From the NCBI GenBank assembly GCA_030833205.1, contig JAURHS010000005.1, positions 1 through 64,000 of the forward strand: 64,000 bases of DNA, in the 5' to 3' direction. Below the pieces are notes generated by a model. The model was given only the letters and a program-made list of their open reading frames with translations. It searched no databases and was not told where the DNA came from. A program made the position numbers and the translations under genes. Numbering within the stretch: the stretch's first letter is position 1; each line of letters opens with the position of its first letter. Below are positions 41,093 through 58,366 of this stretch, in pieces. The DNA is from Prosthecobacter sp. (GTDB lineage Bacteria > Verrucomicrobiota > Verrucomicrobiia > Verrucomicrobiales > Verrucomicrobiaceae).

Positions 41093-42508
41093 TTAGGCCA
41101 TCACTTCCTTGACCACCTCACCGGCCACATCGGTGAGGCGGAAATCGCGACCGGCATACCGGAAGGTCAGGCGCTCGTGGTCCACCCCCAGCAGGTGCAG
41201 CATGGTGGCGTGCAGGTCGTGGATGTGAACCTTGTTTTCCTGGGCAAACCAACCGTAATCATCGGTGGAGCCATGGGCAAATCCTGGGCGTACACCGCCG
41301 CCGGCCATCCACATCGTGAACCCATGGGGGTTGTGGTCGCGACCGTCCTTGCCCTGCGCCGTGGGCGTGCGCCCAAACTCGCCGCCCCAGAGCACCAGCG
41401 TGTCCTCCAGCAAGCCTCGACTGCGCAAATCGCGCAGCAAGCCGGCAATGGGTTTGTCCACCTCGGCAGCGTTCTTGCTGTGTCCCTTGTAGAGATTGCC
41501 GTGCTGATCCCACTGCACCTCGCTGTCGCTGTGCGTCACCTGCACGAAGCGCACGCCGCGTTCCAAAAAGCGCCTGGCCATCAGACACTGGCGACCAAAG
41601 GGCGCGGTGACCGGATTGTCCAGGCCGTAGAGTCGGTGCGTGGCTGCGCTTTCACGCGAGATGTCCTGCGTCTCAGGCATGGTGCCCTGCATGCGAAAGG
41701 CCAACTCGAAGCTGCTGATGCGTCCTTCCAGCGCGGCATTGGCTCCGGCCTGCTCCAAATGCTGCGCATTGGCCTGCGCCAGAAAGTCGAGTTGCAGGCG
41801 CTGCTCCCGCGCACTCAAGCGCGGGTTGACGATGTGGCGAACCATGGCCTGGCTGGAGTCCACACTGGCATTGCCAATCGGGGTGCCCTGAGTCCAGGCG
41901 GGCAGGAAGGCTGCGCCCCAATTGTTGACGCCGCCATGGGCCAAGGTGGGGCAGATGGTGATGAAGCCTGGCAGGTTGTTGTTCTCGCTGCCCAAGCCGT
42001 AAACCACCCAGGAGCCCATGCTGGGGCGCACCTGCGTGTCGCTGCCGGTGTGCAATTTCAACAGCGCGCCACCATGCGCCGGATTGGTGCCATGCAGGGA
42101 GCGCACCACACAGAGCTCATCCACCATCTTGGCCACCTCGGGAAACAACTCGCTGACCGGCAGGCCGCTTTGCCCGTGTTGCTTGAAGCTCCAAGGCGAC
42201 TTGAGCAACTTGCCCGTGGCGGCAAAGGTCACGCGCGGGGTCTTGAATGGATAGGGCTTGCCATCATCGCGCTGCAACAAGGGCTTGGGGTCAAAGGTGT
42301 CCACCGCGGAGGGACCGCCCTTCATGAACAAAAAAATCACGCGCTTGGCGCGGGGAGCATGGCGCGCCGCCTTGGCCAGCACCGGATTATTGCCCTCGGC
42401 GGCAAGCAGACCCTGCAGGGCCAGCATGCCGAAGCCTGCCGCCCCCTGCCCCAACCACTGACGACGGCTGAAGGGCTGTCCTGATTGCAAGGAGGCGAAG
42501 GGGTTCAT
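41093..42508 (-). CDS. DUF1501 domain-containing protein
   Basis: SRRQWLGQGAAGFGMLALQGLL; IFLFMKGGPSAVDTFDPKP; LVLWGGEFGRTPTAQG. ATGA overlap with upstream gene fixes the start at 42508. Confidence 0.88.
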   Translation of the reverse strand: MNPFASLQSGQPFSRRQWLGQGAAGFGMLALQGLLAAEGNNPVLAKAARHAPRAKRVIFLFMKGGPSAVDTFDPKPLLQRDDGKPYPFKTPRVTFAATGKLLKSPWSFKQHGQSGLPVSELFPEVAKMVDELCVVRSLHGTNPAHGGALLKLHTGSDTQVRPSMGSWVVYGLGSENNNLPGFITICPTLAHGGVNNWGAAFLPAWTQGTPIGNASVDSSQAMVRHIVNPRLSAREQRLQLDFLAQANAQHLEQAGANAALEGRISSFELAFRMQGTMPETQDISRESAATHRLYGLDNPVTAPFGRQCLMARRFLERGVRFVQVTHSDSEVQWDQHGNLYKGHSKNAAEVDKPIAGLLRDLRSRGLLEDTLVLWGGEFGRTPTAQGKDGRDHNPHGFTMWMAGGGVRPGFAHGSTDDYGWFAQENKVHIHDLHATMLHLLGVDHERLTFRYAGRDFRLTDVAGEVVKEVMA

Positions 42509-45282
42509 GGCAGATAAATGAATTCGTTGCTGGCCATCAGACTTTGGCAAAGCAGCGCCAAGCCGCGCTGCCCACCCTGCGCGAGAATGTTCTTGGCTCG
42601 CTGCCACTCGGCCTCAGCGGGGCTGCGTCCATACGCAAGCTGCCAGGCCCGATCCACGCGTGCCCGGTCATCGGCTCCGGGGCGCTCGCGCATCAGCCTT
42701 GAGGCCATGGCCTCCGCGCTGTCCATCACCACCGGGGCGTTGAGCAAAATCAGGGCCTGTGGAGCGACCACCGTGGCGTTGCGACTGCCCGTGGGCATGG
42801 TGGGATCCGGGTAATCGAACTGCTCCAAGATGTCGTAAAGATGATTGCGGATGATGGGCAGATAAAGCGCGCGACGCGGGCTCTCGTAGCGGGTGTGATC
42901 ACGGGAGGTGTGATTGAAGACAAACTCGCGATTGCGCAGAGGGATGGTTTTGCCGCCGACTTCAAGACTGAGCGTGCCTGCCATCTGCAGCATGGCATCG
43001 CGCAACTGCTCGGCCTCCAAACGCTGCACCGGGAATCTCCAAAGCAGACGGTTTTCCGGGTCCAGCTCCGTGGGGTCTGTGGCACTGCTCGGGGCCTGGG
43101 CCGCAGGATGGCGTGAGGCCATCTGATAGACGCTGCTGTTCATGAGCAGGCGATGCATTTCCTTCCAGGACCAACCGCGCTCCACCAACTGCATGGCCAA
43201 CCAATCGAGAAGCTGCGGATGCGAGGGGCGATCGCCCAGCACTCCAAAATTCTCAGTGCTGCCCACCAACCCGCGACCAAAGTGCCAGCGCCAGAGACGA
43301 TTGGCCAACACCCGCGCGGTGAGGGGATGCTCGCCGCTGACCAGCCAGCGCGCCAATTGCAGGCGGCCACTTTGCTTCTGCGGAAAAACCGCAGGCACGC
43401 TGGTGGAGCGCATCACCACCGGGAAGGCCCGCTCCACTTCGCGGCCCAAGGTCAGGTAACTGCCGCGGATGTGAATCGGCATCTTGGGCACTGTCGGCCC
43501 CTCCGCCACGCCCATGAAGCCGGGCAGATCCGGTTGCCCGGACTCGCGCCTCATGGCCTCCTCTTGCATGGCCTCGAGCTGCGCCAACACCGGTGCATCC
43601 AAGGCATGGGCATCCTTGTCGGGAATGGTGAGGATGCCGGCCAAGTCCTCGAGTGCCGCCTTGGCCTGCTGCACTGCAGCCGGCAGGGATGGCGCTTTGT
43701 CCTTGACGGCGCGGGCCTTGAGGGCGGCAGCAAACAAGGGCGCGTAATGGGCGCGCAGGGCTTTTTCATCGCGCCTTTTGAAGGCCTCATGCCAGGGCAC
43801 GAAGAAGGGATTGCCGCGTTGTTTGACCAACACCAGGCGACACTGCAGCAGGTAGCGCGGACGCAGACCGCGCTGCTGAGCGAGAGCCTGCACGGCATCA
43901 AAGCCAGGATCATCCGGAAGTTGCAGGGCCGCTGCGAGATAATCCACGGCTCCCTCATCCAACTGTCGGCGCAGTTCGGCACGGGCCTTGGCGGCAAACT
44001 CCGTCACTGTTTTGCGCTGCGCAGCAAGCATGGCATCGCGCTGCGCCTTTTCCTTTGTCTGCTCAGGCGTGGCCAGGGAATGCTCAAAGGCAAACTTGAT
44101 GGCGCCCATTTTTTCATCGGCCAAGGAGCGCGTGCTGCGGAAGATTGCCGCCATGGAGTAATAGTCGGCTTGGCTGATGGGGTCGAACTTGTGGTCGTGG
44201 CAGCGCGCGCAGCCAAAGGTCATGCCGAGGAAGGCCTTGCCCAGGGTGTCGAGCTGCTCGTCAATGATGTCCAATTGCATCTTCTGCACATCGGGCTCAG
44301 CCAGCACTCGTCCGCCCAAGGCCAGAAAACCCAGGGCCGCCAAGCTCTCGTGGCGCGAGGCCTCATCGCGGTTGGGGAGAAGATCGCCGGCCAACTGCTC
44401 AATGACGAATTCGTCATAGGGCTTGTCTTGGTTGAAGGCGCGCACCACATAATCGCGGTAGCGCCAGGCATGACCGAAGGCGATGTTCTCGTCCATGCCG
44501 TTGGAGTCGGCGTAACGCGCCACATCCAGCCAATGTCGGCCCCAGCGCTCCCCATAAGCCGGTGAGGACAGCAGCCGCTCCACCAGGCGAGAGAAGGCAT
44601 CGGGGCGCTCATCGGCCACAAAGGCAGCCACCTCCTCGGGGCTTGGCATCAAGCCGGTGAGGTCCTGGGTGGCACGGCGGATCAACTCCTGCTTCTCCGC
44701 CATCGGCGCCGGCGTCAGGCCCTTGGCCTCCAACTCGGCGAGCACGAAGGCATCCACGGGGGAGCGCACCCACTCGCTGCGCTGCACCCGCGGCAGGGCT
44801 ACGGGCTGCACCGGCTTGAAGGACCAGAAATCGCGCCCCCTCTCCGCGCTCATGCCCATGCCGCCCTCGGCCTTGGCCACTGCGGGAGCCTCGACACGGG
44901 GGTCAGGAGCGCCCATGGCCACCCAGCGCTCCAGCGCAGCGATTTCGGCCTTGGGCAACTGCCCCTTGGGAGGCATCTTGAGATCATCGTGCTGGTAACG
45001 CACGGCCTCGATGATCCGGCTCTCCTCCGGCTTGCCGGCCACCAAGGCCGGGCCGCTGTCTCCGCCGCTGAGCAGTCCCGCGCGGCTGTCCATCACCAAG
45101 CCACCCTTCTTCTTGCCCTTGCTGTTGTGGCACTCAATGCACTTGGCCTCGAACAGGGGGCGAATGCTCTTTTCAAAAAACTCCAGTCCCTGAGGCTGCG
45201 GCACTGCAGCGCGCAGACCCATGGCGGGCAAGGCCAGCAGGGCCAGCCAGCCCAGACGGGGCAATGGGCGTTCGGTCTTCAT
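42505..45282 (-). CDS. PSD1 and planctomycete-type cytochrome c domain protein (DUF1549/DUF1553)
   Basis: Heme CIECH; WVRSPVDAFVLAELEAKGLTP; GCARCHDHKFDPISQADYY; MNSSVYQMASRH; NPLAR-like LTARVLANRLWRWHFG. Confidence 0.92.
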   Translation of the reverse strand: MKTERPLPRLGWLALLALPAMGLRAAVPQPQGLEFFEKSIRPLFEAKCIECHNSKGKKKGGLVMDSRAGLLSGGDSGPALVAGKPEESRIIEAVRYQHDDLKMPPKGQLPKAEIAALERWVAMGAPDPRVEAPAVAKAEGGMGMSAERGRDFWSFKPVQPVALPRVQRSEWVRSPVDAFVLAELEAKGLTPAPMAEKQELIRRATQDLTGLMPSPEEVAAFVADERPDAFSRLVERLLSSPAYGERWGRHWLDVARYADSNGMDENIAFGHAWRYRDYVVRAFNQDKPYDEFVIEQLAGDLLPNRDEASRHESLAALGFLALGGRVLAEPDVQKMQLDIIDEQLDTLGKAFLGMTFGCARCHDHKFDPISQADYYSMAAIFRSTRSLADEKMGAIKFAFEHSLATPEQTKEKAQRDAMLAAQRKTVTEFAAKARAELRRQLDEGAVDYLAAALQLPDDPGFDAVQALAQQRGLRPRYLLQCRLVLVKQRGNPFFVPWHEAFKRRDEKALRAHYAPLFAAALKARAVKDKAPSLPAAVQQAKAALEDLAGILTIPDKDAHALDAPVLAQLEAMQEEAMRRESGQPDLPGFMGVAEGPTVPKMPIHIRGSYLTLGREVERAFPVVMRSTSVPAVFPQKQSGRLQLARWLVSGEHPLTARVLANRLWRWHFGRGLVGSTENFGVLGDRPSHPQLLDWLAMQLVERGWSWKEMHRLLMNSSVYQMASRHPAAQAPSSATDPTELDPENRLLWRFPVQRLEAEQLRDAMLQMAGTLSLEVGGKTIPLRNREFVFNHTSRDHTRYESPRRALYLPIIRNHLYDILEQFDYPDPTMPTGSRNATVVAPQALILLNAPVVMDSAEAMASRLMRERPGADDRARVDRAWQLAYGRSPAEAEWQRAKNILAQGGQRGLALLCQSLMASNEFIYLP

Positions 45283-46976: not shown

Positions 46977-47858
46977 TTGTCAGCGCTGAAGCGCGGACCT
47001 ACCCTCGCGGCGGCGGCAACTTGGTCCGCCAGCAAGGCCTTGACTTCCCCCGCCTCAACTCCAGCACCAGACAGCCGTGAGCCAACTCTCTCGGTGGTCA
47101 TCATCGCGCACAACGAGGAGGGCAACATCGCCGAGTGCCTGCGCAGTGTGGCCTTTGCCGATGAGTGCATCGTGGTGGATCACGCCAGCACGGATCGCAC
47201 GGTGGCAATCGCAACCGCCATGGGTGCCCATGTGCTGCAGACCTCGGACTGGCCTGGGTTTGGTCCGCAAAAAAACCGTGGCCTTGAGCAGGCCAAGGGG
47301 CGCTGGGTGCTCTCGCTGGACGCCGATGAACGCGTCAGCCCTTCCCTTGCCGCTGAGATTCTGAGCGTCATCAGGCCCGATTCTCAAGGCATCTACGCCA
47401 TGCCGCGCAGAACTCAATTCTGCGGACGCTGGATTGACCACTGCGGTTGGACACCGGATTTTGTGGCTCGCCTATTTCCTCGCGGGCTGGCCCGGTTTTC
47501 CGATGCTCTGGTGCATGAGTGCCTCGAATTTGAAGGCCCTTGCGGACGGCTCAAAGCTCCCCTGCTGCACTTCAGCTACCCTCATCCTCAGGCCTATTGG
47601 GACAAGCTGCAGCGCTACAGCGTTGCCTGGGCCGAGCAACGATTCTCCCAGGGCGAGACCAGCTCGATGAGTCGCGCCTGTTTTTCCGGCCTGTTTGCCT
47701 TCCTCAAAAGCTATCTCCTGCGGCTTGGATTCCTCGATGGTGCACTCGGGCTGGCCGTCTGCCTGATGCAGGCGCAGGCGGCCTTCGGGAAACACTTCCA
47801 CCTCTACTGCCTTCACTTGCCCCAGACCTCGGAGCAAGCTCCTGGCCCGCACTCCTGA
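46977..47858 (+). CDS. Glycosyltransferase family 2 (WaaE/KdtX-like)
   Basis: LSVVIIAHNEEGNIAECLRSVAFADECIVVDHASTDRT, LSLDADERVS, GRWIDHCGWTPDFVARLFPRG. Listed start is TTG; true start uncertain. Confidence 0.83.
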   Translation: MSALKRGPTLAAAATWSASKALTSPASTPAPDSREPTLSVVIIAHNEEGNIAECLRSVAFADECIVVDHASTDRTVAIATAMGAHVLQTSDWPGFGPQKNRGLEQAKGRWVLSLDADERVSPSLAAEILSVIRPDSQGIYAMPRRTQFCGRWIDHCGWTPDFVARLFPRGLARFSDALVHECLEFEGPCGRLKAPLLHFSYPHPQAYWDKLQRYSVAWAEQRFSQGETSSMSRACFSGLFAFLKSYLLRLGFLDGALGLAVCLMQAQAAFGKHFHLYCLHLPQTSEQAPGPHS

Positions 47859-47859
47859 A

Positions 47860-49620
47860 ATGGCTCCGGATGATTCAGCCCCGCAGATGCTGTCATGGCT
47901 AGCGCCGCTTGCGCTGCTGCTGCTTGCAACGGTGACAGGGCGAAGCGCACCACCAGCCACCCCGACGAACTCCGACCGCAGACGCGCCATCGCTTCATTC
48001 GGTCTGGCCACGATGATGGCGTCGCTACTGCCGTTCTTGCTGCAGCAAATCAGTTGGGTTCAACAGGCATTGCCGCAGGCCCTCACTGGGAAGGCGGTGG
48101 CCATGGCCCAGCTTTGCCTTCTCCTGACGCTGCTGCTGACCTGCGGCGCACTGCGGCTTGTGGTTGACGGCATCGGGCTCTGGCGTGGCCTTGCCATGTC
48201 CCCCACAAAGCACGCGGCCCAAGCCTGCTCCCTGTTTGAGTTCTGGCAGCGCCTTCTGCCTGCGATGATGCAACCGGGCCGCGCCAATTTCATTCAAGCC
48301 ATGCCGGCAATGGCCCTGATTGCCGCCGCGGCGGCACTCTGGAAAGGAAGCCTGATTTCCAGCGCCGTGTGGATCACGCTGCAATGTCTGGCCCTGAGCC
48401 TTGAGCAAGCCTTGCAGCGAAGATCGCGCCACAATGTCCACCCCTTCCTGCGGTGGCTTTTGACCATGCTTTGGTTGGGCCTATGCAGCCTGCTTTGGAT
48501 CGCGCCGGACACCCAAACTGCCTGGAACACGCTCGGCCTCCTGGCCACAGAGACGCCGATCAACAACTTCAATCTCCTGCTCAACAAACGCCTCACGCTA
48601 CAGGTTCATCAAATCCAGCTCATCGCCGCGCTGATCCTCGCTGCCAGCCAAGGACCGTTGCAGCGGATTCTGATCCTTGGCGCCACCCCCAAGGGCCACA
48701 CCTGCCTCTGGCTGGGCAGCCTGTGCATGCTCATCGCCTCGCGCGACCTGCTGCCATGGCCGGCGGCGGTGAAACAGGCCATTCAACAGCCTCTCTGTTC
48801 CTGGCTGGAGCACGGCAACAGCGCGGTTCACCAAGGCTATGAGGGGTGGCTATTCGACCAGCGCGAATGGGATCGCCGCACCCTCAGACGGCAGGAACCC
48901 GGGCTGCTTGAGGGATGCATTGAGCTCAGCAAGCAACTCAAAGCCAAAGGGGCTGAGCTCGTCATCGTTGCTGCTCCCGCCAAACTTGCCATGGTTCCCG
49001 AAATGGCATTGCGAGCCCAGTACCCGGGGCCCGTGCAACCCCCGGATTGGGCGCAGACCCTTGAGCGCTTGGAACAGGCCAAAGTCCGTCTGCTGGACCC
49101 AGCTCCCGCGCTTTGGAACCGCATTGAGTTTGAGCCCTCGCATTATGCCAGCGCGAGCCATTGGACCTTTGAAAGCATGAAGGCCGTGGCCTCCGCGTTG
49201 GCACGCGACCTTCGGGCACGAAGGCCTGATCTGGTCTCGCAAGAGACACCTGCCATTCAGGCGAGCATCGCCGAGCACAACGGACCCGGCGACCTCGCCA
49301 GTCTGCTGCTTCCCCTGAGCCCCCTCGCCTGCTTTGACGCGGAACAGGAGGAGGTGCTCACCATTGACGGCTTGCCCGATGATCCTGCTGCTGCCATCGC
49401 GGTGGCCAGCGGAGCGCTGGGCCAATGGTTTGGATCCCAACAACCGCTCTTTGACAGCGCCCCAGCCGCCACCGCTGGAAGCGGCGACTTTGCCACCCAA
49501 GTCTCTGCGCTGGTCGGCAAGCCTGTCCACCGCCTTGAGGCTCTACCCATCAACGCTCTGGCTCAACGCCTCGGCAAATCCCGTTTGCTAATTCTCCTGC
49601 TGCCTGCCGACGAACTCTAG
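47860..49620 (+). CDS. Divergent MBOAT (AlgI-like, partial) fused to AlgJ/AlgX-like SGNH-type domain
   Basis: N-terminal half multi-TM with VDGIGLWRGLAMSPTKHAAQACSLFEFWQRL..AALWKGSLISSAVWITLQCLALSLEQAL..FLRWLLTMLWLGLCSLLWIAPDTQTAWNTLGLL, colinear with AlgI-type MBOATs; C-terminal YEGWLFDQREW..LKAKGAELVIVAAPAKLAMVPE..YASASHWTFESMKAVASAL, colinear with AlgJ/X. Confidence 0.6.
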   Translation: MAPDDSAPQMLSWLAPLALLLLATVTGRSAPPATPTNSDRRRAIASFGLATMMASLLPFLLQQISWVQQALPQALTGKAVAMAQLCLLLTLLLTCGALRLVVDGIGLWRGLAMSPTKHAAQACSLFEFWQRLLPAMMQPGRANFIQAMPAMALIAAAAALWKGSLISSAVWITLQCLALSLEQALQRRSRHNVHPFLRWLLTMLWLGLCSLLWIAPDTQTAWNTLGLLATETPINNFNLLLNKRLTLQVHQIQLIAALILAASQGPLQRILILGATPKGHTCLWLGSLCMLIASRDLLPWPAAVKQAIQQPLCSWLEHGNSAVHQGYEGWLFDQREWDRRTLRRQEPGLLEGCIELSKQLKAKGAELVIVAAPAKLAMVPEMALRAQYPGPVQPPDWAQTLERLEQAKVRLLDPAPALWNRIEFEPSHYASASHWTFESMKAVASALARDLRARRPDLVSQETPAIQASIAEHNGPGDLASLLLPLSPLACFDAEQEEVLTIDGLPDDPAAAIAVASGALGQWFGSQQPLFDSAPAATAGSGDFATQVSALVGKPVHRLEALPINALAQRLGKSRLLILLLPADEL

Positions 49621-50853: not shown

Positions 50854-51011
50854 CAATTCACTCAATAGGTTAACCTGTCATGAGTTCAATCGAAAACTTT
50901 CTTCGCGGCCCCTCTTTTGTCTCTGCGCCGAACGCTTCCGTTTCCCGATTTTCCAACAATGACCGAAACTTGTTCCCCTCGCCCTCGTTTCATCGCCGTT
51001 CGCTGACCTCC

Positions 51012-53132
51012 ATGCACTCCTCATTTCTTACCCGCCTGCTTGTTGCCCTTCCTGCCCTTGCACTGGCGGCGCTGGCCACGGCGGTGCCCCTGGACCAGCC
51101 TGTGATTGCTCCCTCGGGAGTCCTGCGGCTTTGGACCGACACCACGGGGCGTCAGGTTGAGGCCACCTTCCGTGGCATTGAAAACGGCGAAATTTACCTG
51201 CAAACCCGCAATGGCTTTGTCTACCGCCTTCCCCTCTCACGACTCAGCCCCGAAGACCAGAAGATGGCGGCCCAGCTCAAACCCGAGGGCCTGGGCATCC
51301 CGCGCGATCCCAGCCTGGCCCAAGCCGCTGCCGTGATTGACAAGGGCGTGCTGCTTGGCCTGGAAAAGGCCAAACAACAGCCCAACCCCCTGGCCAGCGA
51401 CGAGCAGTTCATTCGCCGCGTTTACCTCGATCTCAATGGCCGCATTCCTACCCGCGAGGAAACCATTGCCTTCCTGGAGGACAAAAGCGATTCCAAGCGA
51501 GCCAAGGTCATTGACAAGTTGATCCAAAGCGAAGGCTTCAGCTCGCACCTGTTCAATTATTTCAGCGACATGCTGCGCCTGGCTCACGATGCCCAAAAGG
51601 CAAAATTCTACACCTATGAGGAGTGGTTCAAGAATCAACTCGCGGCCAATCGCCCTTACAACGAAATCGTGCGCGAACTGCTCAGCGCGGATGGAAAATT
51701 GTTGGAGAACGGTGCCACTGGCTACCTGCTGCGTGACCGCGGCATGCGACTGGACAACCTCAGCCTGACCCTGAGCAGCTTCCTTGGGGCCAATGTGGCC
51801 TGCGCGCAATGCCACGACCATCCGTTTGCCGACTGGACCCAAAAGCAATTCTTCCAGATGGCTGCCTTCTTTGGTGCCTCAGAGGTGGGGGTCAAGGCCC
51901 GCACCCCTGCCCTGCGTGGCCTGCGCGAGGAATTGGGCAACGCGGCCTTCCAGCAGGCGCGGCGCCTCATGGATGTCAACTCCCTGCTCATCCGCGATGG
52001 CAGTGCCAATGACCTGACGCTACCCAATGACTACAAATACAAGGATGGCAAGCCTGGTGACCCCGTGGCTCCTGCCTTGGTGACCTGGGGCCCCAACGAC
52101 CACCGTCTGCGCTGCTATCAGGATGCCGAAGCCGGGCTGAAAAAACTCGGCAAGGACGAGGGCGCGCTACGCGACATCTTCGCGCGCTGGATGACCAGCC
52201 CGGACAATCCTCGCTTTGCGATGACCATCGCCAACCGCCTTTGGAAGTTGGTCTTCGGTGTCGGCCTCAAGGAACCAGTCACTGACCTTGACGACCCCAA
52301 CGCCGCCAGCAACCCGGCCCTGTTGCACCACCTGGGCAATGAAATGGTGCGTCTGAAGTTTGATCTGCGCGCCTTCATGCGTCTGCTCTGCAATACCCAG
52401 ACTTATCAGCGCGAGGCGGTGACCCGCGAACTGGAACTGGGCGAGGCTTTCCTTTTCCCTGGACCCATTCTGCGCCGCATGACCGCGGAGCAGGCCTGGG
52501 ACAGCTGCGTGACTCTGGCCATTGGCGAGAAGATCGATGCGTTCAAGGCCAAGCGCGGCGAGGCCTACGCACAAGTCATGAACATGAATGTCGCGGAGGC
52601 CGATGTGGAGGCCATCAAGGAGAAACTCACTGCCATGCAGTCGCTGCGCAAAAAGGGCATGCTCGAAACCAAGGGCAAGGCCAAGGCCAAGGCCAAGAGA
52701 AAGGCGGCGCCAACCATGGCTGAGGACGAGACGGATGCGCAGTCACCGGAAACCCTCGATGGTCTGGTCCTGGCCCGAGCCAGCGAGTTGCGCCAACCCG
52801 AACGCGACAATCATTTCCTGCGCATGTTTGGCCAGAGTGACCGTCAGATTTGCGACAGCAATTCCCTGGAGGGCAGCGTGCCACAGGTGCTCATGCTGAT
52901 GAATGGGGAAGCACAGTCGGTGCTGGGAAGCTCCAGCGCTCGCGTCACCGCCACCGCCATGGGCATGACCAAGCCTGAGGAAAAAGTGGAGGCCCTCTAC
53001 CTGAGCTTCTTCAGCCGCCGCCCTTCCGCGGGAGAGCTTGGTGAGGCTGTGGCAGCGCTCAACGGCGGCCTGCAATCTGCAGACCTGGCCTGGGTGCTCT
53101 TCAACGCCCGCGAATTTGTGTTTGTGCAGTAA
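51012..53132 (+). CDS. DUF1549/DUF1553 protein with N-terminal SHD1-like domain
   Basis: LWTDTTGRQVEATFRGIENGEIYLQTRNGFVYRLPLSRLSPEDQKM; FIRRVYLDLNGRIPT; VACAQCHDHPF; MTIANRLWKLVFG. ATG at 51012 precedes a signal peptide. Confidence 0.87.
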   Translation: MHSSFLTRLLVALPALALAALATAVPLDQPVIAPSGVLRLWTDTTGRQVEATFRGIENGEIYLQTRNGFVYRLPLSRLSPEDQKMAAQLKPEGLGIPRDPSLAQAAAVIDKGVLLGLEKAKQQPNPLASDEQFIRRVYLDLNGRIPTREETIAFLEDKSDSKRAKVIDKLIQSEGFSSHLFNYFSDMLRLAHDAQKAKFYTYEEWFKNQLAANRPYNEIVRELLSADGKLLENGATGYLLRDRGMRLDNLSLTLSSFLGANVACAQCHDHPFADWTQKQFFQMAAFFGASEVGVKARTPALRGLREELGNAAFQQARRLMDVNSLLIRDGSANDLTLPNDYKYKDGKPGDPVAPALVTWGPNDHRLRCYQDAEAGLKKLGKDEGALRDIFARWMTSPDNPRFAMTIANRLWKLVFGVGLKEPVTDLDDPNAASNPALLHHLGNEMVRLKFDLRAFMRLLCNTQTYQREAVTRELELGEAFLFPGPILRRMTAEQAWDSCVTLAIGEKIDAFKAKRGEAYAQVMNMNVAEADVEAIKEKLTAMQSLRKKGMLETKGKAKAKAKRKAAPTMAEDETDAQSPETLDGLVLARASELRQPERDNHFLRMFGQSDRQICDSNSLEGSVPQVLMLMNGEAQSVLGSSSARVTATAMGMTKPEEKVEALYLSFFSRRPSAGELGEAVAALNGGLQSADLAWVLFNAREFVFVQ

Positions 53133-53154
53133 GTCTCCATCCCCACAAGATCCC

Positions 53155-54441
53155 ATGAATCAACCCTTCAACAGTCTCAATCCCGTGGGGCGCCGCCTCT
53201 TTGCTGAGCGCCTGGCGCAAAGCGTGCTGGGCGTCAGCCTACTGCCTCACCTCAGCGCATTGGCCCAGGAGGCGCCAGCCCCCGCTGCCAAGGCGCCTGG
53301 CTTTGGCAAGGCCAAGGCGGTGATCTGGCTTCAGATGACCGGAGGCATGTCTCACATTGACACCCTCGACCCCAAGCGTGGCGAGAGCAAGGGTGCGCGC
53401 GATCCCATCGCCACCAAGGCCGGTTACGAACTTGGCGGCTATCTGCCCAAGCTGGCCGCATCGCACAGCGAAAAGATGGCCATTATTCGCAGCATGAGCT
53501 CCAAGACCGGGGTGCATGCCTCGGGTCAGTACCTCATGCGCACCGGCTATGAGCAGCGCGGGACGATTCAACACCCAAGTCTCGGTGCATGGGCGCAGGA
53601 ATTGCTGGGCAAGAGCCACAAAACGCTACCCTCCTCGGTTTGCGTCAACCGCAATCCTGATCACGGCAACGGCTTTTTCAGCGCGGCGTACAGCCCGCTG
53701 CCCATTCACGACCCCGATGCGGGCCTGCAATACTCCACCTTCGCAGCGAGCTCCGAGGTCATGGACAAGCGGCTCGCCCTTCTCAACAAAATAGATGGTG
53801 GCTTCCGCGCCAAGTTCAAGGACAGCAACCTGAAGGCCTACAGCGATTTCTACGACGACACCCTCAAACTTCTCTCCAGCGAAGACCTGGCAGCCTTCAA
53901 ACTCACCGACGAACAAGACGAGCAACGCGAAGCCTACGGCCGCAACAAGTTCGGGCAGGGCTGCATGCTGGCGCGGCGATTGGTGGAGCGCGGCGTGCGC
54001 TTCGTGGAAGTCACCCAGGGTGGATGGGACATGCACAACGACATTGACGATGAGATGCAGGAAAATGGCGGCATCATTGATGTGGCGATCTCCGCCCTGC
54101 TGGAAGATCTTCACAACCGTGGCCTTCTTCAGAGCACCATGATTGTGCTGTGTTCGGAGTTTGGCCGTGGCCCGCGCATCAACAGCCGCAGTGGGCGCGA
54201 TCATCACCCCAAAGTATTCTCCACCATGCTGGCCGGCGCCGGTGTGCGCGGCGGCACCATTTACGGCAGCAGCGACAAGGACGGCAACAGTGTCGCCGAC
54301 AAGCAGTCCACCATTCAGGATTTCCACAGCACCGTTGGCCACGCCATGGGCATGGATGTGGACCATGTGACCATGTCCCCGAGCAACCGCCCCTTCACAG
54401 TTGGCGACAAGGGCAAGGTCATCGCCGATGTGCTGGCATGA
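53155..54441 (+). CDS. DUF1501 domain-containing protein
   Basis: VIWLQMTGGMSHIDTLDPKRGESKG; IVLCSEFGRGPRINSRSGRDHHP. Confidence 0.88.
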   Translation: MNQPFNSLNPVGRRLFAERLAQSVLGVSLLPHLSALAQEAPAPAAKAPGFGKAKAVIWLQMTGGMSHIDTLDPKRGESKGARDPIATKAGYELGGYLPKLAASHSEKMAIIRSMSSKTGVHASGQYLMRTGYEQRGTIQHPSLGAWAQELLGKSHKTLPSSVCVNRNPDHGNGFFSAAYSPLPIHDPDAGLQYSTFAASSEVMDKRLALLNKIDGGFRAKFKDSNLKAYSDFYDDTLKLLSSEDLAAFKLTDEQDEQREAYGRNKFGQGCMLARRLVERGVRFVEVTQGGWDMHNDIDDEMQENGGIIDVAISALLEDLHNRGLLQSTMIVLCSEFGRGPRINSRSGRDHHPKVFSTMLAGAGVRGGTIYGSSDKDGNSVADKQSTIQDFHSTVGHAMGMDVDHVTMSPSNRPFTVGDKGKVIADVLA

Positions 54442-55932: not shown

Positions 55933-56029
55933 GCCCTTGCCAACGCCGAAAGCGTTGGACATTTCAAGCCTCAAACCGCACAATCCCGAGTTTGCGACAG
56001 TTTTGAGTCTTCATCCCCCCTCTGACGCC

Positions 56030-58366
56030 ATGCTCCGCCGCCTCACCCGTCTCGTCCCGGCCCTCTTCGTCGCCTTGAGTTTGAGCCTGGCGCCAGCCGG
56101 GCGGGCCGACACCAATTTCGGGCAAGTCGCCATGTATGTGGCCTACATGCTGCAGAGCCAGCACTACAGCCACCGCGATGTTGACGATGAACTCTCAGCC
56201 AAGCTGCTGGAGAACTACCTCAACCTCCTCGACTTCCGCCATGTGTTCTTCACCCAGCAGGATGTGGACCGTCTGCGCGAGCAGTACAAGACCACGCTCG
56301 ATGATGCCATTCTGATGCGCAACATCAGCCCTGCGATTGAAATCTACGACATTTACAAGCAGCGCGTCGAAGAACGGTTGGCCTTCACCCGCAAGGTTCT
56401 CGCCGACGAAACATTCACCTTCGACAGCAAGCGCAGCATTGAACTCAAGCGCGACAAGGCTCCCTACCCCAAGGACAAAGCAGACCAGGATCAGCTCTGG
56501 CGCAACCTGATCGAGGAAAATTTGCTCCAGGAGAAACTCACCGACATCAACAAACAGGAGGAAGCCAAGCGCAAGGCCGCCAAGGCCGCCGCCAAGCCTC
56601 AACCCAAGTCGCCAGCTCCCGCCAAGAAGCCCGAAGTCAAGGTCGCGGAGAAGAAGAAGGACGAGGAAACACCGCAGCAGCGGGTGCTTCGTGACTACGA
56701 GCGACTGCTGGAAAGCATCAACGAAAACGACCAGGAGGACATTGTGGATTTCTTCCTCTCCAGCCTCTCCGTGGCCTACGACCCGCATACCGAGTACATG
56801 AGTCAGGCAGAGACCGACAGCTTCAACATCTCCATGAAGCACAAGCTGGTGGGCATCGGTGCACTGCTTGGCTTGGAGGACGATGTTGCTCAGATTCAGG
56901 GAATCGTGGTTGGCGGACCAGCTGACAAGCAGGGCGAACTCAGGCTCAATGACAAGATCCTCGCCGTGGCCCAGGGCGAGGCGGATTTCGTGGACACCAA
57001 ATTCATGAAACTCAACAAGATCGTGGAGATGATTCGCGGCGACGAGGGCAGCACGGTACGGCTGCGCATCGCCCCCGCCGACGACCCCGACAACCTGCGC
57101 GTGATCTCCATTGTCCGCGCTCAGGTGGAGCTGAAGGAAAAGCTGGCCAATGCCGAATTGCTGGTCACTCCCCCCTCACAGGGCCCGCAACTCAAGCTGG
57201 GATGGATCAACCTATCCTCCTTTTACGCCGACATGGAGGCCGGCACCGTCTCCACCACAGACGATGTGCAGCGTTTGCTCAAACGGCTGATTCAGGAGAA
57301 GATTGATGGTCTCGTGCTTGATCTGCGCGGCAACGGAGGCGGCTCCCTCGAGGAAGCCATTCGCCTCACGGGCTTGTTTGTGCCGGCAGGGCCGGTGGTA
57401 CAGGCCAAGGATTGGCAGGGCCGCATCAGCATGCGCGAATGTGAAACGCCAGACGCCCTTTACTCCGGGCCCATGATTGTCCTCACCGACAAAACCAGCG
57501 CCTCTGCCAGTGAAATCCTTGCCGCAGCACTGCAGGACTATCGCCGCGCCCTGATCGTCGGGGACAAGTCCACCTTCGGCAAGGGCACCGTCCAGACCAT
57601 CCTGCCCGTGGGCCGCTACATGCGCAACCCCACGCTGCGCGATGAGGACCGCGACCGCGCCGGCAATCTCAAGGTCACCATCCAAAAATTCTACCGGATT
57701 GCCGGTGGCTCCACCCAGCTCAAGGGCGTCGAACCCGATCTGGTGCTGCCCTCCATTCGCGATGTGCTCGACATTGGTGAAGCCTCGGCTGACAACCCCC
57801 TGCCATACGACACCATCCCCGCGGTGCCCTACAAGTTGGTCAACCCGCAACCTTGGCCATTGGCGGAACTCAACCGACGCCTTGGCGCTCGCATCGGAGC
57901 CGACCCCGAATTCAAAACCATTCGCGAAGAAAGCAAGCGCTTGCAGGACCGAATCGAACGCAACCGCGTCTCGCTCAATCTTGCTGAGCGTCAGAGCGAA
58001 AACGACGAAACCCGCATCCGCCGCGAAAGGCAGGAGCAAGACCGTGAGGCACGCGTGAAGGCCGCGGCAGGCAAGGAGGCCTTCAAGGCCTACCGTCTCA
58101 CCCTCGACAATGTGGACAAGCCAGAGTTGATGCCCGAGTCGGACTTCACCCGTGAGAAGAGCACCGGAATGCGCATGGCAAAAAACAACGAGGATGACGA
58201 GGCCGAAGGCGCAGCTGAGAAATTTCCCCTTGGCCTTGAGCCTGTGAAGGCTGAGGCAGTGCACATCATGCGCGACTTGCTTGAGCTTACCGGCAAACTG
58301 CCAGCCACCGCCAACGCTCCGACCAAGCCCGCAGCCGCGCCGGCCAATCCAAGGGCCACGCGTTAA
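56030..58366 (+). CDS. Carboxy-terminal processing peptidase (S41 family, Prc/Tsp-like)
   Basis: YDPHTEYMSQAETDSFNISMKHKLVGIGALLG (PDZ region), LVLDLRGNGGGSLEEAIRLTGLF, TDKTSASASEILAAALQDYRRALIVGDKSTFGKGTVQ. Confidence 0.93.
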   Translation: MLRRLTRLVPALFVALSLSLAPAGRADTNFGQVAMYVAYMLQSQHYSHRDVDDELSAKLLENYLNLLDFRHVFFTQQDVDRLREQYKTTLDDAILMRNISPAIEIYDIYKQRVEERLAFTRKVLADETFTFDSKRSIELKRDKAPYPKDKADQDQLWRNLIEENLLQEKLTDINKQEEAKRKAAKAAAKPQPKSPAPAKKPEVKVAEKKKDEETPQQRVLRDYERLLESINENDQEDIVDFFLSSLSVAYDPHTEYMSQAETDSFNISMKHKLVGIGALLGLEDDVAQIQGIVVGGPADKQGELRLNDKILAVAQGEADFVDTKFMKLNKIVEMIRGDEGSTVRLRIAPADDPDNLRVISIVRAQVELKEKLANAELLVTPPSQGPQLKLGWINLSSFYADMEAGTVSTTDDVQRLLKRLIQEKIDGLVLDLRGNGGGSLEEAIRLTGLFVPAGPVVQAKDWQGRISMRECETPDALYSGPMIVLTDKTSASASEILAAALQDYRRALIVGDKSTFGKGTVQTILPVGRYMRNPTLRDEDRDRAGNLKVTIQKFYRIAGGSTQLKGVEPDLVLPSIRDVLDIGEASADNPLPYDTIPAVPYKLVNPQPWPLAELNRRLGARIGADPEFKTIREESKRLQDRIERNRVSLNLAERQSENDETRIRRERQEQDREARVKAAAGKEAFKAYRLTLDNVDKPELMPESDFTREKSTGMRMAKNNEDDEAEGAAEKFPLGLEPVKAEAVHIMRDLLELTGKLPATANAPTKPAAAPANPRATR

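Follow-up and report, generated by a model that had tools for sequence, protein, structure and literature searches.

A retained single-chain fusion of degenerate MBOAT and AlgX/AlgJ-like domains in Prosthecobacter and its relatives

A 64,000-nucleotide stretch of Prosthecobacter sp. DNA (hereafter the window) encodes a protein in which the degenerate remnant of an AlgI-type MBOAT is joined, in one chain, to a degenerate AlgX/AlgJ SGNH-like domain. We consider it likely that this protein has been neofunctionalised as a pseudoenzyme, its periplasmic SGNH-fold domain, anchored in the membrane, now serving to bind and no longer to acetylate. Two routes to polysaccharide O-acetylation are described for bacteria, one pairing an MBOAT with a separate SGNH protein and the other relying on an AT3–SGNH fusion (PMC12148441). 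The family to which the window protein belongs represents a third outcome, in which both partners lack their catalytic parts, are joined, and are still retained nearly genus-wide. We found no description of an MBOAT–SGNH single chain or pseudoenzyme in the open-access literature.

Architecture of the fused protein

The fused gene, recognized from its ORF, its fused homologues and a Pfam ALGX match, occupies positions 47860–49620 of the window (like all features of this gene given below, on the + strand), where an ATG opens a reading frame of 586 codons, all of them open. An initial annotation of this DNA had placed the ORF and its FWQRLLPA, LWKG and ASH motifs correctly, and its proposal of a single-chain protein made of an MBOAT remnant and an AlgJ/X domain is borne out by profile–profile comparison, by Pfam, and by a match to the AlgJ fold. 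It had named the absence of an MBOAT or an AlgJ/X match as grounds for abandoning that proposal; when the searches were run, both halves matched.

Hhalign and our family HMM identify residues 38–294 (47971–48741) as what remains of an AlgI-type MBOAT, namely its C-terminal ~55%. When we compared 13 N-terminal halves with 16 canonical AlgI-type MBOATs using hhalign, the two profiles matched with a probability of 99.6% (E = 3.8e-24) over 255 columns; the match covers columns 230–496 of the 508 in the canonical MBOAT profile and places FWRRWH and LWHG in register. An unrelated 12-TM transporter, included as a negative control, gave a probability of 0.1%. The homology to MBOATs (PF03062) is thus visible to profile–profile comparison but not to Pfam hmmscan: Pfam and NCBIfam scans of the N-terminal half gave no significant match in the window protein, and of 12 fused homologues a single one matched the Pfam MBOAT model, at E = 0.57. 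The N-terminal profile also found no match among PDB sequences with HMMER, and the model of this half alone had no significant Foldseek match among PDB structures, a plausible result for an incomplete fold; the MBOAT PORCN was among the weak matches (probability 0.66, E = 0.76). The ~190 residues with which the MBOAT begins are missing from the fused form, which does not constitute a full-length MBOAT fold.

The C-terminal half, residues 323–586 (48826–49617), is an AlgX/AlgJ-type SGNH-fold domain. Pfam ALGX (PF16822) matches residues 323–488 with an E-value of 1.5e-17 and a score of 64.6 bits (cut-off 26.5). In an AlphaFold model of the fused protein (16 sequences; mean pLDDT 78, pTM 0.77), this half matches AlgJ (4o8v, E = 1.1e-9), AlgX (4knc, E = 6.8e-7) and also the PatB1 structure when searched with Foldseek. 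The domain's C-terminus is shorter than that of separate AlgX proteins. Alignments of the fused, split and paired forms (described below) locate the junction to residues 276–320 (48685–48819), where the final MBOAT transmembrane helix passes straight into the AlgX ectodomain, with neither the C-terminal FxYxxF acyl-shuttle motif of the MBOAT nor the N-terminal TM helix of AlgX.

Loss of catalytic residues

For acetyl transfer, MBOAT–SGNH systems require the MBOAT His and the acetyl-carrying Tyr of the C-terminal FxYxxF motif (PMC12148441). They also need a Ser-His-Asp triad, and in AlgX D174, H176 and S269 are required (PMC4148444). The canonical MBOATs that we compared retain RRWH (QRWH in one case), LWHG and FxYFxF, and all three triad residues are present in 54 of 54 canonical ALGX sequences. 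In the window protein, alignments show FWQRLLPA (residues 128–135; 48241–48264) in place of FWRRWHIS, with Leu133 at the position of the WHIS His and the YIPLGGNR loop that follows deleted. They also show LWKG (residues 160–163; 48337–48348), in which Lys162 (codon 48343–48345) takes the place of the catalytic LWHG His; reading QRLL and LWKG, the protein thus has neither that His nor a conserved RRWH. In the SGNH half, ASH (residues 432–434; 49153–49161) replaces the DxH of AlgX/AlgJ, so that Asp becomes Ala432 and His434 is retained, and SGA (residues 517–519; 49408–49416) replaces the canonical GDS, with Ala519 at the position of the nucleophilic Ser. His434 is therefore all that is left of the triad. 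A protein with this set of replacements should be incapable of the canonical O-acetylation reaction.

The substitutions that the initial annotation had reported at WHIS, LWHG and DxH are real when set against the canonical MBOAT and ALGX sequences compared. Three other losses had been overlooked: the C-terminal acyl-shuttle hexapeptide, the nucleophilic Ser of the SGNH domain, and the loop after the WH motif. It had also named canonical His and Asp residues elsewhere in the chain as grounds for abandoning its reading; our alignments bear on this as far as the aligned positions go, and those are without them.

Catalytic loss is family-wide and not peculiar to the window copy. The WHIS/RRWH His, the YIPLGGNR loop and FxYxxF are each retained in 0 of 26 fused proteins, and FxYxxF, present in canonical MBOATs, is absent from every split member as well. 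The SGNH Ser is lost almost throughout the genus and is absent in at least 22 of the 26; it is clearly present only in L192 and L196, which come from other genera, and ambiguous in L193 and L203. Among the split ALGX proteins that cover the site, all but one have lost it. The initial annotation's pseudoenzyme reading gains support from this family-wide loss of catalytic parts. The two exceptions from other genera (L192:3863–5617 and L196:2497–4368) have a degenerate MBOAT half together with intact DxH and GDS motifs, and are possible intermediates of decay.

Asp loss, on the other hand, is rare: 24 of 26 fused proteins retain the Asp of DxH, and outside the window we saw it missing only from one other fused protein and one split protein. 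With Ser loss general, the change at DxH is the least telling of the losses, and the earlier view of the D-to-A replacement as the key event does not stand, the family having lost the Ser and the acyl-shuttle Tyr instead. The LWHG position varies freely across the fused family, being H, K, R, N, A, Q or L, with the His retained in eight of 26 members, so the LWKG of the window is one of many tolerated states. For this reason we rejected Lys162 as a new catalytic residue, and the earlier suggestion of a divergent chemistry, taken as one using Lys, is not supported.

A broader version of that suggestion would have the protein be an active enzyme that uses its remaining His (with Asp in the relatives), and perhaps Lys162, for some other acyl or hydrolytic reaction. 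The DxH motif of most fused relatives, the LWHG His where it persists, and the strong purifying selection described below are all in its favor. We nevertheless think it very improbable, as neither catalytic position has a conserved substitute residue, and there is no longer a nucleophile or an acyl-carrier Tyr (nor, in the window, the Asp). Some residual or altered activity is possible in the family, given that eight members keep the LWHG His and most keep the D–H pair.

Retention and new conserved positions

The family is under purifying selection and is not a dying pseudogene: of 48 genomes sampled from the Prosthecobacter/Brevifollis genus, 45 carry it in fused or split form, and its dN/dS is 0.06–0.19 in the nine closest pairs and 0.17–0.35 in the next five, with similar values for the MBOAT and AlgX halves. 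The alignment also reveals conserved positions that are specific to it. Trp419 (49114–49116) and Lys441 (49180–49182) never vary within the degenerate family, whereas canonical ALGX are not invariant there, and the same distinction holds for Thr463-Pro464 (49246–49251), which is 98% conserved in the family; Ala468 and Phe531 are further examples. The window copy retains every one of these.

Retention combined with these new invariants suggests that the protein serves for binding or as a scaffold in the periplasm. That the new positions form a site serving a function other than O-acetylation, and that one-chain forms arose several times in Verrucomicrobiaceae after MBOAT catalysis had been lost, is a joint proposal that we put forward tentatively, with more doubt than belief.

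Even with functional relatives, the copy in the window's own genome might be a decaying pseudogene. It breaks 27 of 81 family-conserved columns, whereas its relatives break 2–11, and it is one of only two sampled fused proteins that lack both the Asp and the Ser. However, its frame is fully open, its position-specific G+C resembles that of the neighboring genes, and the new family invariants are all in place. In addition, the relative end branch of the fused gene is 3.1 times the mean of the others, while for control genes from the same genome (a prephenate dehydratase and the protease-like protein at 55949–58363 of the window) it is 4.8 times. Gene-specific relaxation of the window copy is not supported, since the control genes have the longer relative end branches. 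With the window lineage fast-evolving as a whole, the broken columns are not evidence of gene decay, and we see little chance that this copy is dying. The control-gene end branches also mark the window genome (G000) as belonging to a lineage that is fast-evolving or distant within its genus.

Origin from an adjacent gene pair

The nearest relatives of the fused protein are from the same genus, in records named Prosthecobacter and Brevifollis; the cultured relative Brevifollis gellanilyticus has a fused orthologue. We built a family HMM from 12 fused proteins and searched 290 genomes of the order with it. In many of these it matched two separate genes, one encoding a full-length MBOAT (model positions 22–290) and the other an adjacent ALGX (295–580). 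Gene maps of sister genera show the same arrangement, with an MBOAT of about 478 aa adjoining an ALGX of about 555 aa. In about half of the genus we found a second, split form, in which an MBOAT remnant of 221–229 aa, its central catalytic region deleted, is overlapped by an ALGX gene of ~370 aa. The split ALGX has its own N-terminal TM segment, which is missing in the fused form; because it keeps this segment, it was probably never fused, and the split genes are unlikely to be fission products of the fused form. It takes three changes to account for the fused state on the ALGX tree, which raises the possibility of more than one fusion event. Several of the split loci (L042:6228–7936 and similar ones) have what we read from the sequence as a threonine aldolase-like gene nearby.

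The family thus descends from an adjacent pair comprising an AlgI-type MBOAT and an AlgX/AlgJ-type SGNH O-acetyltransferase. Gone from the MBOAT are its N-terminal ~190 residues, the WHIS/YIPLGGNR catalytic segment and the C-terminal FxYxxF acyl-shuttle motif; the AlgX ectodomain now continues from its last transmembrane helix. The SGNH domain has lost its nucleophilic Ser, and the window copy the DxH Asp in addition; what is left is an SGNH-fold protein whose most likely role is that of a scaffold or accessory binding to a glycan or to some partner in the envelope. Active pairs, dead MBOATs with an intact SGNH triad, and proteins with both halves dead make up a natural series in which to study how an enzyme pair becomes a pseudoenzyme.

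Comparison with known O-acetylation systems

Both fused halves are homologous to the components of the AlgI/AlgJ/AlgX (alginate) and PatA/PatB (peptidoglycan) O-acetylation systems, and their order is that of the adjacent genes; as in those systems, the last MBOAT helix leads to the periplasm, the site of the SGNH domain. There, however, the SGNH protein is separate, whereas here there is one chain, from which the MBOAT N-terminal part, the WHIS His, the loop, the FxYxxF Tyr and the SGNH Ser (in the window, also the Asp) are gone. OatA and other AT3–SGNH proteins are similar in that a membrane acyltransferase-type domain is followed by an SGNH domain in a single polypeptide, but the membrane half here is MBOAT-derived and catalytically degenerate, not AT3; a Pfam search of the window protein gave no AT3 (PF01757) match at E ≤ 1. 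The likeness to Pseudomonas aeruginosa AlgX lies in the SGNH-fold periplasmic domain and in a role beyond catalysis: alginate production depends on AlgX by way of the complex it forms with AlgK, which provides a precedent for a non-catalytic need (PMC9734138). Unlike AlgX, the fused protein has lost the catalytic triad, has a trimmed C-terminal region, and is tethered by TM helices. A practical consequence is that, in Verrucomicrobiaceae, the annotation “AlgX acetyltransferase” can be mistaken.

Genomic context

A gene for a GT2 glycosyltransferase (46977–47858, + strand; Pfam PF00535, E = 9e-20) lies upstream and ends 1 nt ahead of the ATG of the fused gene, as the initial annotation had stated. 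The role in LPS or exopolysaccharide modification that it had drawn from this linkage finds no backing, since no GT2 homologue was found near the fused gene in 20 homologous neighborhoods and the GT2 orthologues are on other contigs or ~119 kb distant. We rejected the idea of an operon with GT2 because the linkage is not conserved. Other fused genes adjoin genes that, as read from sequence, are gamma-glutamyltransferase-like, PAP2/phosphatase-like or kinase-like, and the neighbors of the family differ between clades; being so variable, the context points to no glycan.

Elsewhere in the window genome, contig C211 carries an intact AlgI gene and two ALGX genes (L093:5033–11483), with RRWH, LWHG, FIYFNF and GDS motifs all intact. 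Their presence is what favors a role for the fused protein as a regulatory or dominant-negative pseudoenzyme, one that modulates O-acetylation by the canonical AlgI/AlgX of the same cell. We judge this unlikely, if somewhat less so than the decay or divergent-chemistry readings: the C211 ALGX falls on another of the deep branches in the ALGX tree, and the degenerate family occurs without any PF03062 MBOAT in 12 genomes of the genus with a completeness of at least 90%, so such a partner is not generally needed. The C211 genes are preceded by two SGNH/GDSL-looking ORFs and appear to be a complete polymer O-acetylation cassette. In the window itself, the region of the fused gene is flanked by two PSCyt2/PSD1 (DUF1549/DUF1553) plus DUF1501 pairs, at 41096–45282 on the − strand and 50880–54438 on the + strand.
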